Origin: an uncultured Opitutia bacterium
GTDB taxonomy: Bacteria > Verrucomicrobiota > Verrucomicrobiia > Opitutales > UBA953
Length of the DNA: 55,227 nt
Reading direction: 5' to 3'
Assembly (NCBI GenBank): GCA_903850885.1
Contig: CAINMU010000141.1
Coordinates: 1 to 55,227, forward strand
Below, in pieces: positions 30,818-42,190 of the stretch. The position numbers and the translations under genes are program-made. A model generated the notes under the pieces. It saw only the letters and a list, made by a program, of their open reading frames with translations. It was not told the origin of the DNA and did no database searches. The first letter of the stretch is position 1. Each line of letters starts with the position of its first letter.

Positions 30818-32113
30818 ATGCTCCTCCTCACCACCCTCCTCGCCGTCGCGGCTTCCGCTCTCTTTGCGGATTCCCCACCCGCTGGCTTCACACCGTTGTT
30901 CAACGGTCAAGACCTTGCCGGCTGGCATGGCTACAATCCGCACCTCGTCGCCAAACTGACCGGCGAAAAGAAGGACGCCATGTTGCAAAAGATGCGTGAT
31001 GAATTCTCGCAGCACTGGTCCGTGATGGACGGCGAGCTCGTCAATCCAGGGTCGGGTGCGTATGCGACCACCGTCAAGGAGTACGGCGACATCGAACTCG
31101 TCCTGGAATATAATATGGCCCCCCTGGGCGACTCTGGCATCTACCTCCGTGCCTGCCCTCAAGTGCAAATCTGGGATCCCGCTAATCCCAAGGAAGTTAA
31201 AAACGACGCTCAACTGGGTTCAGGCTCGCTTTGGAATAATAGCAAGGGCGCTCCCGGCAAAAATGCCCTGGTCCTCGCGGACAAGCCTCCCGGCGAATGG
31301 AACACGATGCGCATCCTGATGGTCGGTGCCCGCGTCAGCGTCTGGCTCAACGGCAAGCAGACCGTCGACCACGCCATCCTGGAGAACTACTACGACCGAA
31401 AAGCTTCCATCCCAGCCAAGGGACCGATTTGCCTCCAGACCCACGGTGCCTCCATCCGCTGGCGCAATATCGCCGTCCGCGAAATCTCCGGTACCGAGGC
31501 CAACCAAATCCTCGCCGCTCACGGTAACGCCAACTTCAAATCCATCTTCAACGGTAAAGATTTCACGGGCTGGGCTGGTCCGACCGAGAACTTCGAAGTC
31601 GTCGAAAGCGCGATCCGTTGTAAAACCGGCAAAGGCGGCACCCCTTACTACAATCAGGACCTGACTGATTTCGCCAATCGCCTCGAGTTCAAGCTCCCGT
31701 CGGGCGGCAACAACGGCCTTGCCATTCGTTACCCTGGCAAGGGCAACACAGCCTACGATGGCATGTGCGAACTGCAGGTGCTCGACGATAATTATGAAAA
31801 GGTGAAAGGCAAAATCGACCCACGCCAGGTCCATGGTTCCGCTTACGGCATGGTCGCCGCCCAACGTGGCTACCAACGCCCCATCGGCGAATGGAACTTC
31901 CAGGAAACCACCGTCGTCGGCTCGACCCTTCACGTCGAACTTAACGGCTACATCATCCTCGACACCGACCTCTCCACGGTCGACATGGCGACGGTGATGG
32001 CCAAGAGCCCGCACCCCGGCAAGGACCGCAAAAATGGCTTCTTCGGCTTCGCCGGACATAACGACGCCGCTGAATTCCGGAACGTCGAGATCAAGGACCT
32101 GGCCGCCAAGTAA
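30818..32113 (+). CDS. Tandem two-domain DUF1080 protein
   Basis: Exported protein of 431 aa with a short signal peptide (MLLLTTLLAVAASALFA) and two consecutive DUF1080 domains. Domain 1 (about 20-232) begins GFTPLFNGQDLAGWHGYNP and ends CLQTHGASIRWRNIAVREI. Domain 2 (about 243-430) begins FKSIFNGKDFTGWAGP and ends FFGFAGHNDAAEFRNVEIKDL. The two halves are related but clearly diverged, consistent with an old duplication. It is 39 bp after the single-domain gene and ends 21 bp before an intrinsic terminator. Its ATG follows a C-rich pyrimidine tract (30785-30810) with no Shine-Dalgarno sequence. Confidence 0.9.
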   Translation: MLLLTTLLAVAASALFADSPPAGFTPLFNGQDLAGWHGYNPHLVAKLTGEKKDAMLQKMRDEFSQHWSVMDGELVNPGSGAYATTVKEYGDIELVLEYNMAPLGDSGIYLRACPQVQIWDPANPKEVKNDAQLGSGSLWNNSKGAPGKNALVLADKPPGEWNTMRILMVGARVSVWLNGKQTVDHAILENYYDRKASIPAKGPICLQTHGASIRWRNIAVREISGTEANQILAAHGNANFKSIFNGKDFTGWAGPTENFEVVESAIRCKTGKGGTPYYNQDLTDFANRLEFKLPSGGNNGLAIRYPGKGNTAYDGMCELQVLDDNYEKVKGKIDPRQVHGSAYGMVAAQRGYQRPIGEWNFQETTVVGSTLHVELNGYIILDTDLSTVDMATVMAKSPHPGKDRKNGFFGFAGHNDAAEFRNVEIKDLAAK

Positions 32114-32134: not shown

Positions 32135-32159
32135 AAACCCCTCGCAAGAGGGGTTTTTT
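32135..32159 (+). terminator. Intrinsic terminator of the 17744-32113 unit
   Basis: A perfect 9-bp stem (32135-32143 with 32148-32156) has a GCAA tetraloop and runs into TTTTTT (32154-32159). It lies 21 bp past the tandem DUF1080 gene on its strand and ends the long transcription unit. Confidence 0.92.
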
Positions 32160-35200: not shown

Positions 35201-35370
35201 GCCTCGAGAAACGTCTCGCGACCTATGCCGCCGACAAGACACTCGCGCCTAAACTTCTTGCGACTGGCCTGAGCCCTGCACCGAGCGATCTCGACCGCGA
35301 CCAATTGGCCGCCTGGACGGCCACGACCAATATCCTCCTCAACCTCGACGAAACCGTCACCCGCGAATGA
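32221..35370 (+). CDS. PSCyt1-DUF1549-DUF1553 protein (module D)
   Basis: Exported cytochrome-like protein, 1049 aa. Signal peptide MRLRPSTLYLSAASLLAFAHGVAA, PSCyt1 with CFACH (41-45), DUF1549 from about 150 to 360 with CCRCHDHKYDP (327-337). A middle beta-rich domain (about 465-640, AVRLEALPDDSHPGKSLGRA) carries a Lys/Ala-rich stretch near 545-560. DUF1553 runs from about 748 to the end (NILLNLDETVTRE). It starts in the CCCCATGCG context 61 bp past the terminator, so a promoter must lie in 32160-32220, though none is clear. It overlaps the DUF1501 gene by four bases (ATGA). Confidence 0.92.
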   Translation: MRLRPSTLYLSAASLLAFAHGVAAERVEFNRDIRPIFSDTCFACHGPDENKMKGKLRLDSLAAAKRGGKSGDAAIVPGHPEKSQVMKRLLTKDADDHMPPADFHKVLSKVQVETVRLWIEQGAEYQGHWAFQIPKKPALPSVPTGGNAIDAFLAKNLAAKGLTPNAEAPKATLLRRAALDLTGLPPTDADLQSFLSDSSADAWPKAIDRLMTSPHYGENMAMQWLDFARYADSNGFQSDTQRTMWPYRDWVIKAFNDNKPFDQFTVEQLAGDLLPAATRDQVVATAFNRNHRLNGEGGRIVEEWFAENVIDRIETTGSTWMALTMNCCRCHDHKYDPISQKEFYQFFAYFNSNDESGVLGEFGGSGSTRRGGNTSPLLALPTSDQQKKIDETTAALATAEKILKSIPTSQPELFAKWLERQQAAFAKNGIAWQPLVGETVSAKEDAEFTRLDDGSWLVSGGTAAKETYIIESTPAPGLLTAVRLEALPDDSHPGKSLGRAFNGNFVLSAIELRLLTSDGKSAPLPLVKAEADYDQPGWSIAKLAPITMAKAKGKAAKKADNDKAGWAIGGNLPNNRVARKAIFTVAPTTIPVGAKLIVTLRQEAVASHSIGRFRLNVSGQDPKMLSLKSDPAAEAARHLLSKPADQLTTADRKALEKLFGDSPEHPRFAATAKVAAAKTAHDGALGAPISVMVMKEIEKPRDAFVLLRGEYDKIGPKVERKLPAFLPPLPAGEPNNRLGFARWLVNGQHPLTGRVWVNRTWERFFGIGLVKTSENFGSQSEWPSNPELLDWLAVEFVDRKWDMKSMQTLIMTSAAYRRSAAVTAEMLEKDPDNRLLARGPRFRLPAEVIRDQALSISGLLVDIQGGPSVKPYMPEAVWDETSVYGDMRNYKADKGEGLYRRSLYTIWKRTAAPPSMLLFDSPGREVCTVKRSRSNTPLQALSLLNEVTFVEAARKLAEQAMRQSGDNETKLAWTFRHVVRRDATAAELSVLRKGLEKRLATYAADKTLAPKLLATGLSPAPSDLDRDQLAAWTATTNILLNLDETVTRE

Positions 35371-36830
35371 ACTGCAACGACCATCAATTCCAAGGCCTCG
35401 ACCCTGCCACGCAGATGGCCTTATCGCGGCGCACTTTCATCAAGGGTTCCGCGGGTGGCATCGGACTCGCCGCCTTAGGCTCCATCATCGGCACCCCGGC
35501 CTTCGCCGCCAATCCTGGCTTGGGTTTCCCTAACTTCAAGCCCAAGGCCAAACGGATCATCTACCTATTCCAATCCGGCGCACCTTCACAACTGGATCTC
35601 TTTGATCCGAAACCGGAGATGGAAAAAATGCGAGCCAAGGACCTCCCGGAAAGCATCCGCAAGGGTCAACGCCTGACCACGATGACGTCCGGCCAGAAGT
35701 CATTCCCCGTCGCCCCGTCGATTTTCAAATTCAAACAGTACGGGCAATCCGGCGCTTGGTTTAGCGAACTCATGCCGCACATGTCCACCAAGGCCGACGC
35801 ATGGTGCGTCGTGCGCGCCATGCACACCGAAGCCATCAACCATGACCCGGCGATCACCTTCATGCAGACCGGCAGCCAGCTCGCAGGGCGCCCCAGCATC
35901 GGTGCCTGGTCCGCCTACGGTCTCGGCAGCGAGAACGCCAACCTTCCCGCCTACGTGGTCATGACTTCGTTCGGTAGCGGCCGACCTGCCGACCAGCCAC
36001 TGTACGATAGGCTCTGGGGCGCCGGCTTCCTGCCCTCCAAACTCCAAGGCGTTAAGCTCCGCAACAAAGGAGAGCGCGTGCTTTACCTCAAGGACCCCGA
36101 CGGCATCCCCCGCGAAGTTCGCCGCGAACAGCTCGACGAGCTCGCCGCCCTTAACAACCAACGCCACGACGTCCTCGGCGACCCCGAAATCCAGACTCGT
36201 ATTTCACAATATGAAATGGCCTTCCGCATGCAGACCAGCGTGCCCGACCTGCTCGACCTTTCCAAAGAGCCGCAACATGTCCTCGACCTTTACGGGCCGG
36301 ATGTGAAACGCCCCGGCTCTTATGCGTCCAATTGCCTCCTGGCCCGTCGTCTCTGCGAACGCGACGTGCGGTTCGTCCAGCTCTTCCACATGGGCTGGGA
36401 CCACCACGGCGGCCTCCCCAATGCCATCAAAGGCCAGTGCAACGACACCGACCAAGCCACGGCCGGATTACTCACCGACCTCAAACAACGCGGACTGCTC
36501 GATGACACTCTGATTGTCTGGGGCGGTGAATTCGGACGTACCATCTATTCGCAAGGCACCCTTACCGAAACCAATTACGGACGCGACCACCACCCGCGCT
36601 GCTTCACCGTCCTGATGGCCGGCGCCGGCGTCAACCAGGGCACCACCTTCGGCGAGACCGACGACTTCAGTTATAACATCGTTAAGGATGGCGTGCATGT
36701 GCACGACCTCAACGCCACGATCCTACACCTGATGGGCGTCGACCATAAGCGCCTCACGTATCGCTACCAAGGCCGCGACTTCCGGCTCACCGACATCCAC
36801 GGGGATGTCGTCAAGCAGCTGTTGGCGTGA
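35367..36830 (+). CDS. DUF1501 protein (module D)
   Basis: Exported DUF1501 protein, 487 aa. Tat-like signal LSRRTFIKGSAGGIGLAALG (RR at 21-22). Motifs are FQSGAPSQLDLFDPKP and WGGEFGRT at 385-392, where the Pro of GRTP is replaced by Ile (GRTIYSQG); YGRDHHPRCF follows. It overlaps module D's cytochrome-like gene by ATGA. Seven bases after its stop codon lies the first octamer-repeat arm (36838-36871). Confidence 0.92.
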   Translation: MNCNDHQFQGLDPATQMALSRRTFIKGSAGGIGLAALGSIIGTPAFAANPGLGFPNFKPKAKRIIYLFQSGAPSQLDLFDPKPEMEKMRAKDLPESIRKGQRLTTMTSGQKSFPVAPSIFKFKQYGQSGAWFSELMPHMSTKADAWCVVRAMHTEAINHDPAITFMQTGSQLAGRPSIGAWSAYGLGSENANLPAYVVMTSFGSGRPADQPLYDRLWGAGFLPSKLQGVKLRNKGERVLYLKDPDGIPREVRREQLDELAALNNQRHDVLGDPEIQTRISQYEMAFRMQTSVPDLLDLSKEPQHVLDLYGPDVKRPGSYASNCLLARRLCERDVRFVQLFHMGWDHHGGLPNAIKGQCNDTDQATAGLLTDLKQRGLLDDTLIVWGGEFGRTIYSQGTLTETNYGRDHHPRCFTVLMAGAGVNQGTTFGETDDFSYNIVKDGVHVHDLNATILHLMGVDHKRLTYRYQGRDFRLTDIHGDVVKQLLA

Positions 36831-36837
36831 AGTGGTA

Positions 36838-36871
36838 GTTGACCCGTTGAAAGGTTGAACAGTTGGCCAGA
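36838..36871 (+). repeat. GTTGAnnn octamer array, left arm
   Basis: Four octamers in register: GTTGACCC, GTTGAAAG, GTTGAACA, GTTGGCCA, then GA. It starts 7 nt after the DUF1501 stop, reading in the gene's direction. It is an imperfect inverted repeat of 36976-37009: over 35 aligned bases 27 match, and all eight differences fall in the three-base spacers while GTTGA and GTTGGCCAGA are identical. Confidence 0.8.
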
Positions 36872-36975
36872 CCTAACCTGTTACCGCACGAGATAGCCAT
36901 ATCTTTACGTGCTTAGACAGACTCGGCATTTGGCGTGTGAACACGAGTTGAAAGTAAGACAAAGCAACCGCCCTC

Positions 36976-37009
36976 TCTGGCCAACCCGTCAACGGATCAA
37001 CCGATCAAC
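36976..37009 (-). repeat. GTTGAnnn octamer array, right arm
   Basis: On the minus strand this reads GTTGATCG, GTTGATCC, GTTGACGG, GTTGGCCA, GA, with the same order as the left arm and in opposite orientation. It begins 10 nt after the stop codon of the convergent sulfatase gene. The 104 bases between the arms (36872-36975) are AT-richer than the genes; I see no gene or T-run terminator there. Confidence 0.8.
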
Positions 37010-37019
37010 TCAGTCTGGT

Positions 37020-38510
37020 TTATTTACCGGTCTGCTCCCTATACATCACCTTGAATGGATTCTCGGCCGGGCCTTGGACGTTCTCATTGACCATGAGCGG
37101 ACGACACTCCTTCCACCAGGCATCATGCTTGGCGATCAGGTCCGCGACGACATCGGGATGCGCCGCTGCGACGTCGGTGGTCTCTCCATAGTCGGCGCTT
37201 AAATCAAAGAGCTCCCACTTCGGACCCGAAGAATTGCCTTCCGCATCGGCGGCCGACTTCTTGGCTTTGGCGTTGGCTTTACCCTTGCCGCCACCTGAAG
37301 CACCGGCCGAAACCAAATGCCAGCGGGCCGTACGCACACTCGTACCCGCAAACTTACCCGTCTCAGGATCTACCCCTTTGACCATGTTACCCCAGCGGCC
37401 GACGTGGGTAAAGAGCAAGCGGTCTGGCCAAGCTATCTCCGATGCGACCTTAGCCGTGAGCAAAGGCACGAGACTTCGACCTTCCATTTGCGCCTTCATG
37501 GCCTGCGAAGCGGGCGTACCCGTCAGTTCAAGAATCGTCGGAGCATAATCGATATGCGCGGCCAAGGCCTTGATATCCTGAGGCTGGAACTGTCCAGGCA
37601 AGCGCCAGAAAGACATCGCCCGGATACCGCCCATGTAAGGCGTACCTTTGCCTGAGTGCATGCCCGCATTGAAGACCTTCACCCCAGCGGTACCGCCGTT
37701 GTCGTTCATCAGGACGATCAAAGTGTCCTTGGCGATGCCCATGGCCTCAACCTTCGCCAGCAGCTTGCCGACATTAAGGTCGATATTATGAATCATCCCG
37801 AAGAAGTTTTCGGTATCCTTACCGAGGTCTTTACCTTGATAAATCGCGGCATCTTCCGGTTTGGCATGATAAGGGCCGTGCGGAGCGTTCGTCGCGATAT
37901 AAGCGTAAAAAGGACGCTTCGCCGTCACTTCGCCTTCGATCCACGTCGTCGCCTGCTTAAAAAATTCGTCGGTACAATAGCCCTCGGTCTTCACGAATTT
38001 GCCGTTATGCAATAATGTAGGGCCATAATAAGAATTGCCCGGGACGTCGCCGCAACTTCCAGGATAATGCTGTCCGATGCCGCCGGCTCCATGGATATAA
38101 ACCTCGTCGAAACCGCGCATGTTTGGCTGATACTCGGCTTCGTCGCCGAGGTGCCACTTGCCGAAGATACCCGTGCGATAGCCCGCTTTTTGCAATTGCT
38201 GAGGCAAAGTCACCGAAGCGAGCGACATCCGCTCCCGCTCCAAGATGGTATGGGTGATGCCATTCTTGAATTCATGTCGGCCGGTCAACAAGGCGCTGCG
38301 CGTCGGCGAACAGGTCGGTGAGACCTGGAAGTCGACGAAACGGGCGCTTTCGCCGCGAAGTTTATTGATATTAGGCGTCTTGAGGATGGGATTACCGTGC
38401 GCGCTCAGATCGCCATAACCTTGGTCATCGGTCAGAATAAAAATGATATTGGGACGCTCGGCGGCGAGGGTCGCCAGACAGCTCAATAAAAGAACTATAA
38501 GATATCGCAT
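37020..38510 (-). CDS. Secreted Cys-type sulfatase
   Basis: Predicted exported sulfatase of 496 aa, family S1, hydrolysing a sulfate ester. Signal peptide MRYLIVLLLSCLATLAA; metal-binding NIIFILTDDQGYGD (Asp28-Asp29); the formylglycine motif CSPTRSALLTGR with Cys67 as the residue to be oxidised; GIFGKWHLGD further on as the second signature. A Gly/Lys/Ala-rich insert occurs in the C-terminal third (KGKANAKAKKSAADAE). Cys-type sulfatases need a maturation enzyme, which is not encoded in this window. It is convergent with module D and starts in the CCCCATGCG context. The sulfated substrate cannot be told from sequence. Confidence 0.92.
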   Translation of the reverse strand: MRYLIVLLLSCLATLAAERPNIIFILTDDQGYGDLSAHGNPILKTPNINKLRGESARFVDFQVSPTCSPTRSALLTGRHEFKNGITHTILERERMSLASVTLPQQLQKAGYRTGIFGKWHLGDEAEYQPNMRGFDEVYIHGAGGIGQHYPGSCGDVPGNSYYGPTLLHNGKFVKTEGYCTDEFFKQATTWIEGEVTAKRPFYAYIATNAPHGPYHAKPEDAAIYQGKDLGKDTENFFGMIHNIDLNVGKLLAKVEAMGIAKDTLIVLMNDNGGTAGVKVFNAGMHSGKGTPYMGGIRAMSFWRLPGQFQPQDIKALAAHIDYAPTILELTGTPASQAMKAQMEGRSLVPLLTAKVASEIAWPDRLLFTHVGRWGNMVKGVDPETGKFAGTSVRTARWHLVSAGASGGGKGKANAKAKKSAADAEGNSSGPKWELFDLSADYGETTDVAAAHPDVVADLIAKHDAWWKECRPLMVNENVQGPAENPFKVMYREQTGK

Positions 38511-42152: not shown

Positions 42153-42161
42153 GCACCAAAG

Positions 42162-42190
42162 GAGCCGGACTTAGTCTGGCTCTTCTTTTG
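42162..42190 (+). terminator. Intrinsic terminator after speA
   Basis: GAGCCGGA (42162-42169) pairs with TCTGGCTC (42175-42182) including one G-U, with a five-base loop, followed by TTCTTTTG. It begins 9 bp after the speA stop codon. Confidence 0.8.

Follow-up and report, generated by a model that had tools for sequence, protein, structure and literature searches.

A facing pair of octamer arrays between two convergent genes

The window, i.e., the whole stretch of DNA analyzed here, covers 55,227 nt from an uncultured Opitutia bacterium (GCA_903850885.1, contig CAINMU010000141.1, positions 1 to 55,227 of the forward strand). A gene encoding a DUF1501 protein and a gene encoding a sulfatase converge on a short intergenic region that carries two arrays facing each other (Table 1). 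Each array is 34 nt long and consists of three GTTGAnnn units followed by GTTGGCCAGA. The left box starts 7 nt after the DUF1501 stop codon (TGA, 36828-36830) and the right box 10 nt after the sulfatase stop codon (37020-37022). This layout, described in the original prediction, was borne out by direct reading of the sequence and by shuffling: GTTGAnnnGTTGAnnnGTTGA has four matches with at most one mismatch in the window compared to none in 100 dinucleotide shuffles. The two arms form an inverted repeat of 35 nt (77% complementary) and are separated by 104 nt. They differ at eight positions, all of them, as had been claimed, within the nine spacer positions.

The absence of a T-run terminator from the gap (36838-37009), also claimed initially, was corroborated by a scan for hairpins and U-tracts: a hairpin can form but the U-tract that accompanies the GC-rich hairpin of intrinsic terminators is absent. 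Two U-tailed terminator-like hairpins located after other stop codons (Table 1) show that ordinary sites of this type also exist in the genome to which the window belongs. No Rfam family matches the window at gathering score.

Table 1. Features of the window at the DUF1501/sulfatase junction and comparison sites
Feature	Position	Strand	Description
DUF1501 gene (PF07394)	35367..36830	+	left convergent partner
Left box	36838..36871	+	GTTGACCC GTTGAAAG GTTGAACA GTTGGCCAGA; orthologous in G001, G020, G056, G036, G011, G012
Interior (loop)	36872..36975		separates the two boxes; 104 nt, evolving rapidly, devoid of GTAG REPs and T-runs
Right box	36976..37009	-	GTTGATCG GTTGATCC GTTGACGG GTTGGCCAGA, read from 37009 to 36976; orthologous in the same six genomes as the left box
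Sulfatase gene (PF00884)	37020..38510	-	right convergent partner
U-tailed terminator-like hairpin	32135..32156	+	comparison site; consensus match; past stop at 32113
U-tailed terminator-like hairpin	42160..42184	+	comparison site; consensus match; shortly past stop 42152

Size, consensus and placement of the repeat family

The two arms of the window belong to a family of repeats found in a freshwater genus of Opitutae. The count proposed in the original prediction found 18 matches to three strict GTTGAnnn units in the genome of the window (2.34 Mb, 152 contigs) and 173 matches to a relaxed unit, the arrays being intergenic. Genomes of the same genus have 0 to 110 array matches each, and none was found in six genomes from other families of the same order. 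Among the public genomes scanned, those that have the array in its usual flanks are mainly freshwater Opitutae/Opitutales assemblies. Matches outside Opitutae (Streptomyces, Kribbella, Flavobacteriales and others) were not taken as the same element, since most of those that were inspected consist of one GTTGGCCN word repeated in a run.

All these counts result from pattern searches, and the following ones come from 61 loci (842 kb) in which genes were called by a codon-usage script. Since these loci were picked because they carry arrays, the figures are contrasts inside array-rich stretches and not genome-wide rates. This sample includes 229 arrays, only two of which are genic. Among 216 distinct arrays, 163 have exactly four octamers, in strict 8-bp register and with a consistent order of units, and the consensus of the box is A-GTTGAcCn-GTTGAtca-GTTGgCCa-GTTGGCca-GA. 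A second type of box, GCTGGCcg GTTGACAA GTTGACcn GTGGgCAA GGGAgg, often comes next after the GTTG box in the same direction.

The boxes point inward from the nearest intergenic edge in 163 cases and outward in 32, whatever the strands of the flanking genes; several of the outward boxes are roughly midway across the gap or next to a gene missed by the caller. In every intergenic region that has boxes on both strands, the plus boxes are on the left and the minus boxes on the right. Boxes are found on one strand only in 70 regions, and their pairing rank with a possible partner (0.41) is hardly above chance. Considering intergenic regions of at least 60 nt, arrays are present in 35 of the 66 regions between convergent genes, 52 of the 198 between tandem genes and 13 of the 89 between divergent genes (convergent versus divergent, P = 5e-7). 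The outermost box lies at a median distance of 26 nt from a stop codon compared to 88 nt from a start codon, and 45 of the 85 outermost boxes facing a stop are within 30 nt of it, compared to only four of the 38 facing a start.

These data modify the rule initially put forward, according to which each array follows the stop codon of its own gene and reads in the direction of this gene. Since boxes between tandem genes are sense in 50 cases and antisense in 45, and since arrays also occur between divergent genes, this is not the general rule but a special case of a wider one: boxes point inward from either intergenic edge, and are commonest between convergent genes, where they hug the stop codons. 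The preference of the boxes for 3′ ends is in line with the original prediction.

The same geometry was observed for unrelated words, whose inward:outward ratios are 19:4 for GAGGRCNN, 27:3 for GAGTAYN, 27:1 for GTGCAAAN and 29:6 for GGTGGCN, as well as for the GGTAGGG motif of GTAG REPs (244:87). Furthermore, in the 61 loci, the plus strand is rich in G over the left half of an intergenic region and rich in C over the right half, in convergent, tandem and divergent gaps, with or without arrays. Since both the inward rule and the skew extend beyond the GTTG boxes, part of this architecture may be common to these genomes at large, the GTTG box being perhaps only one of several interchangeable words. 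This general inward pattern is the main reason for caution about any account specific to GTTG.

Some of these other words were found at defined places. Another phased octamer word, GAGGRC plus two free bases (pattern GAGGRCNNGAGGRCNNGAGGRC; L206 and L207), abounds in some genomes of the genus, with up to 77 matches (G042), and is almost missing from others, with three matches in G000 and none in G001. GAGTAYN heptamers, with one free base, lie downstream of the sulfatase stop at the same convergent junction in other species (L200, L202, L205, L216, L219 and L220), and GCGGYTR heptamers make up facing arms at the RuvA/DapB junction (L279, L282, L291 and L292).

Conservation at orthologous junctions

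The DUF1501/sulfatase junction was compared across about 30 genomes of the same genus. A facing pair whose interior is alignable and gradually diverged was found in seven of them (G000, G001, G020, G056, G036, G011 and G012), which indicates that the element is homologous and old at this site; the pair is neither unique in its genome nor private to one lineage. In the alignment of the seven species, three of 50 core columns are variable compared to 12 of 18 spacer columns (P = 8e-7) and 72 of 104 interior columns (P = 2e-14), with the proviso that the sequences are related and that variable columns are therefore not independent events. The conserved core and free spacer deduced initially from the two arms alone are thus found again between species. 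In the first five genomes, no core column varies (0/50, compared to 12/18 for spacers and 68/104 for the interior), and mean pairwise differences are 0 for the core, 0.45 for the spacer and 0.40 for the interior. In the core, G012 has one change (GTCGA) and G020 has two (GTTAA and a terminal A to C); neither GTCGA nor GTTAA is accompanied by a matching change in the unit of the partner arm.

A second convergent junction, between genes that we named NuoI and OYE-like from our own reading of the sequences and whose arms were transcribed by hand, gives the same picture: positions 1-4 of the octamers are invariant (0/32), compared to nine variable positions out of 24 in the spacers (P = 1.7e-4) and six out of eight at position 8 alone. 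Given the differences between core, spacer and interior at the first junction and the agreement of the second one, the cores look selected in place whereas spacers and loops drift. Such a contrast within one short element points to selection on the core and seems hard to explain otherwise.

In some relatives, the same two genes converge with their stop codons only a few nucleotides apart and without the element, which is therefore not essential at the DUF1501/sulfatase junction in these relatives. Other species have different inverted words or almost no gap. The pair is found on several branches, with other words in its place in other species, and the tree, read by eye without formal reconstruction, suggests repeated replacement at this junction.

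The RuvA/DapB junction also differs between relatives. In two close relatives (L069:10219-10724 and L078:15794-16298), the outer boxes are kept but the interior GTAG hairpins have turned over, and the right box has four units in L069 and five in L078. A facing pair and its 92-nt interior are 99% identical between L240:6859 (G025) and L265:201 (G022) despite a divergence of several percent in RuvA, which suggests a horizontal transfer of the region.

Possible roles of the boxes and alternative explanations

The distribution of terminators links the boxes to gene ends. A U-tailed hairpin was detected within 120 nt beyond only one of 64 boxes that follow a stop codon, compared to 26 of the 143 gene ends whose region has no array (P = 5e-4; simple hairpin scan and our own gene calls). 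Several relatives have no boxes at the NuoI junction but a GTAG hairpin with T6 after it, a layout typical of canonical terminators. Together with the other words and apparent replacements at the DUF1501/sulfatase junction, these observations fit, without proving it, a replaceable bidirectional end or insulation element. Bidirectional intrinsic terminators are inverted repeats located between convergent stop codons and close to both of them. The pair of the window shares this location but has no T-run on either side, its arms are 104 nt apart and its core is conserved across unrelated loci.

The recognition of a box could depend on its sequence or on the pairing of the arms. Facing pairs fold strongly: z-scores are -3.2/-4.3 for the window (dG -55.6/-67.1), -7.0/-5.1 for L248, whose stem is perfect over more than 20 bp, and -11.1/-10.2 for L079, with a stem of about 30 bp. 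One explanation is that only the RNA or DNA hairpin matters, as a bidirectional U-less terminator or as a stabilizer of mRNA 3′ ends whose facing arms make up a long stem, the similarity between sites being due to descent. The inward arrangement of unrelated words would agree with it. However, none of the 25 arm pairs in the alignment of five species shows a compensated change, covariation of spacers between partner arms is not significant over 22 pairs (P = 0.12), the spacers of the window arms are mispaired, the rare core changes are uncompensated and many arrays have no good partner. The lack of compensated changes and of spacer covariation, together with the 70 one-strand regions with little sign of a partner, makes sequence-specific recognition more likely than a pure stem, and the hairpin alone is an improbable explanation.

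Our leading but tentative reading, held with somewhat less than even confidence, is that the boxes are sequence-specifically bound elements of gene borders or 3′ ends, acting as bidirectional terminators or insulators. The bidirectional terminator or bound 3′ element of the original prediction thus stays in front, with putative binding and termination activities. A box of about 34 bp, made of four octamers in strict 8-bp register (GTTGAYnn GTTGAYnn GTTG(A/G)Cnn GTTGGCCA, followed by GA), would be read by its sequence, on DNA or on nascent RNA, by a trans-acting factor. This factor would most likely be a protein acting as an oligomer, each octamer being read by one subunit, and the conservation of the cores would reflect selection on the bound site. 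Set at intergenic edges and pointing inward, two boxes facing each other between convergent genes would most likely constitute a bidirectional 3′-end or insulating element that replaces a U-tailed terminator and prevents transcription of either gene from reaching its neighbour; a long hairpin between the two arms may assist. The box may be kept by selection as a possibly undescribed signal that ends or fences off the reading of genes. The presence of arrays between tandem and divergent genes and the frequency of single arrays without partner count against this border or 3′-end reading.

Three other readings of the sequence were considered. (i) GUUGRY octamers could pair with each other on a single RNA strand (G.U pairs being possible), and single two-box elements do fold moderately (z of -3 to -4 on the sense strand), but this leaves the GAGGRC and GAGTAY words unexplained. 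(ii) Integron attC-like core sites (GTTRRRY) were ruled out by inspection, the third R being C or T in GTTGAC and GTTGAT. (iii) The complementary strand, C-rich with UCAAC every 8 nt and always just before entry into a gene, could be read as a Rho-loading (rut-like) site. This agrees with the inward rule and with the general shift from G to C across intergenic regions, but a near-invariant core of 5 nt is not explained by it; this is retained only as a possible mode of action.

The main rival, which we consider unlikely but likelier than the other alternatives, is a miniature mobile element (MITE or REPIN-like doublet) that has the facing boxes as its terminal inverted repeats and a transposase binding to their octamers; inward pointing would then simply follow from the geometry of an inserted doublet, and lone boxes would be remnants. 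A small transposed element was already considered in the original prediction. Like a MITE, the window pair has terminal inverted repeats (35 nt) around a short non-coding interior (104 nt). The number of copies differs strongly between species of the genus (0 to 110), and inward geometry is automatic for doublets and common to GTAG REPs. Two copies located 6 kb apart in G024 share their arms and a 29-nt interior at 93%, and highly similar two-box modules recur in clusters of G000. However, most compact pairs enclose an interior that occurs only once in the loci sampled from the genome concerned, the 29-nt pair of G024 being the repeated case; MITEs come in several near-identical dispersed copies, interior included. 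Neither a target-site duplication at the window pair nor a clean empty site was seen, the intergenic sequences of relatives devoid of the pair being wholly different, and no autonomous copy was found. Furthermore, a dead insertion would not be expected to keep its cores at a fixed orthologous site where its spacers and loop drift. A mobile origin followed by adoption for a host use is possible.

GTAG-tagged REPs, BIMEs and REPINs are intergenic and form inverted doublets, a REP being one hairpin tagged by GTAG (PMC3733652, PMC3116915), and GTAG REPs are abundant in O. terrae, a relative within Verrucomicrobia (PMC3733652). GTTG boxes are likewise intergenic and arranged in inverted doublets, and GTAG hairpins sit within many box regions. 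Unlike REPs, the GTTG box is a tandem array of octamers, and no GTAG or GGAG tag beside a short palindrome was found in the window arms or in the consensus of the family. RAYT-like Y1 transposases do not track the boxes either: among these incomplete genomes, G024, G025, G012 and G020 have arrays without any PF01797 match, and G037 has a PF01797 match without arrays. Genes encoding such transposases (PF01797) are present in 28 of 55 genomes (for example, G000:C73:13015-13227 and G000:C149:4169-4303), and it is plausible that they drive the GTAG REPs located inside many box-flanked gaps.

A more specific version of the bound-element reading, speculative at this stage, would be a border-marking system particular to the genus. 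Instead of U-tailed terminators, inward four-octamer boxes bound by a dedicated factor would end or block the transcription of either strand, and species would have swapped words (GTTGRYNN, GAGGRCNN, GAGTAYN and others) at the same junctions.

The boxes could also be arrays for a putative DNA-binding protein that would organize intergenic DNA or serve to mark it, without acting directly in termination, like the tandem operators of MetJ, a ribbon-helix-helix protein. MetJ-type operators are tandem arrays of two to five units in 8-bp register, their met boxes being palindromic octamers located in promoters. The GTTG boxes have the same strict 8-bp register, usually with four units, and a constrained core without pairing covariation, and they also occur between divergent genes. 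Unlike met boxes, GTTGAnnn is not palindromic and is located at gene borders. This explanation appears rather doubtful, since the strong preference for convergent regions and for the proximity of stop codons and the avoidance of U-tailed terminators point to 3′ ends. Finally, neutral tandem repeats born by slippage and tolerated in gene ends, as suggested by shifts in unit number (four versus five between L069 and L078) and by the other simple words found at the same places, are very improbable: unlike microsatellites, whose unit number varies by slippage without phased constraint, the boxes have a fixed four-unit length and unit order (163 of 216 arrays), an inward orientation and a conservation phased over species, and slippage is disfavoured by the core/spacer contrast at the two junctions (3/50 versus 12/18 at the first).

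For decades, short phased repeats have been listed from intergenic DNA without a consensus on their function. The TAACTGA heptamer direct repeats of Beggiatoaceae, Cyanobacteria and Bacteroidetes form about 170 intergenic sets per genome and are patchy across species; they are exact 7-mers in two to six copies, most of them lying shortly before a start codon and oriented toward it (MacGregor 2015, PMC4679880). GTTG boxes resemble them as short tandem intergenic words of patchy distribution, and the function of TAACTGA repeats is likewise inferred from position only (PMC4679880). Unlike them, the GTTG box is a degenerate 8-mer, usually in four units, located away from start codons, arranged in facing inverted pairs and showing a core/spacer contrast across species. 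The cyanobacterial repeats named STRR have a degenerate consensus. The tandem heptanucleotides of Calothrix, which are of this kind, are short tandem intergenic words with a 7-nt period (cited in PMC4692102). The inward facing-pair layout and the conservation of the core in place, both found for the GTTG box, are not described in the part of this literature accessible to us.

No description of octamer arrays in this bacterial group was found in the open-access literature, and none of the nearest published relatives (TAACTGA repeats, Calothrix heptanucleotides and GTAG REPs) has, in the accessible portions of the sources, facing four-octamer boxes with conserved cores. Here, sequence comparison alone parts selected-looking from drifting positions at two orthologous sites and offers a simple rule of placement, i.e., inward from gene edges, near stop codons and in place of U-tailed terminators. 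The function of such a repeat becomes testable by asking which protein or RNA reads GTTG every eight bases and how much read-through occurs. Outside this group, facing arrays of GTTDGCCN octamers, with six units followed by 12 on the opposite strand and hardly any interior, were observed in a Desulfosudis oleivorans MAG, which belongs to an unrelated phylum (L151:2704-2860).
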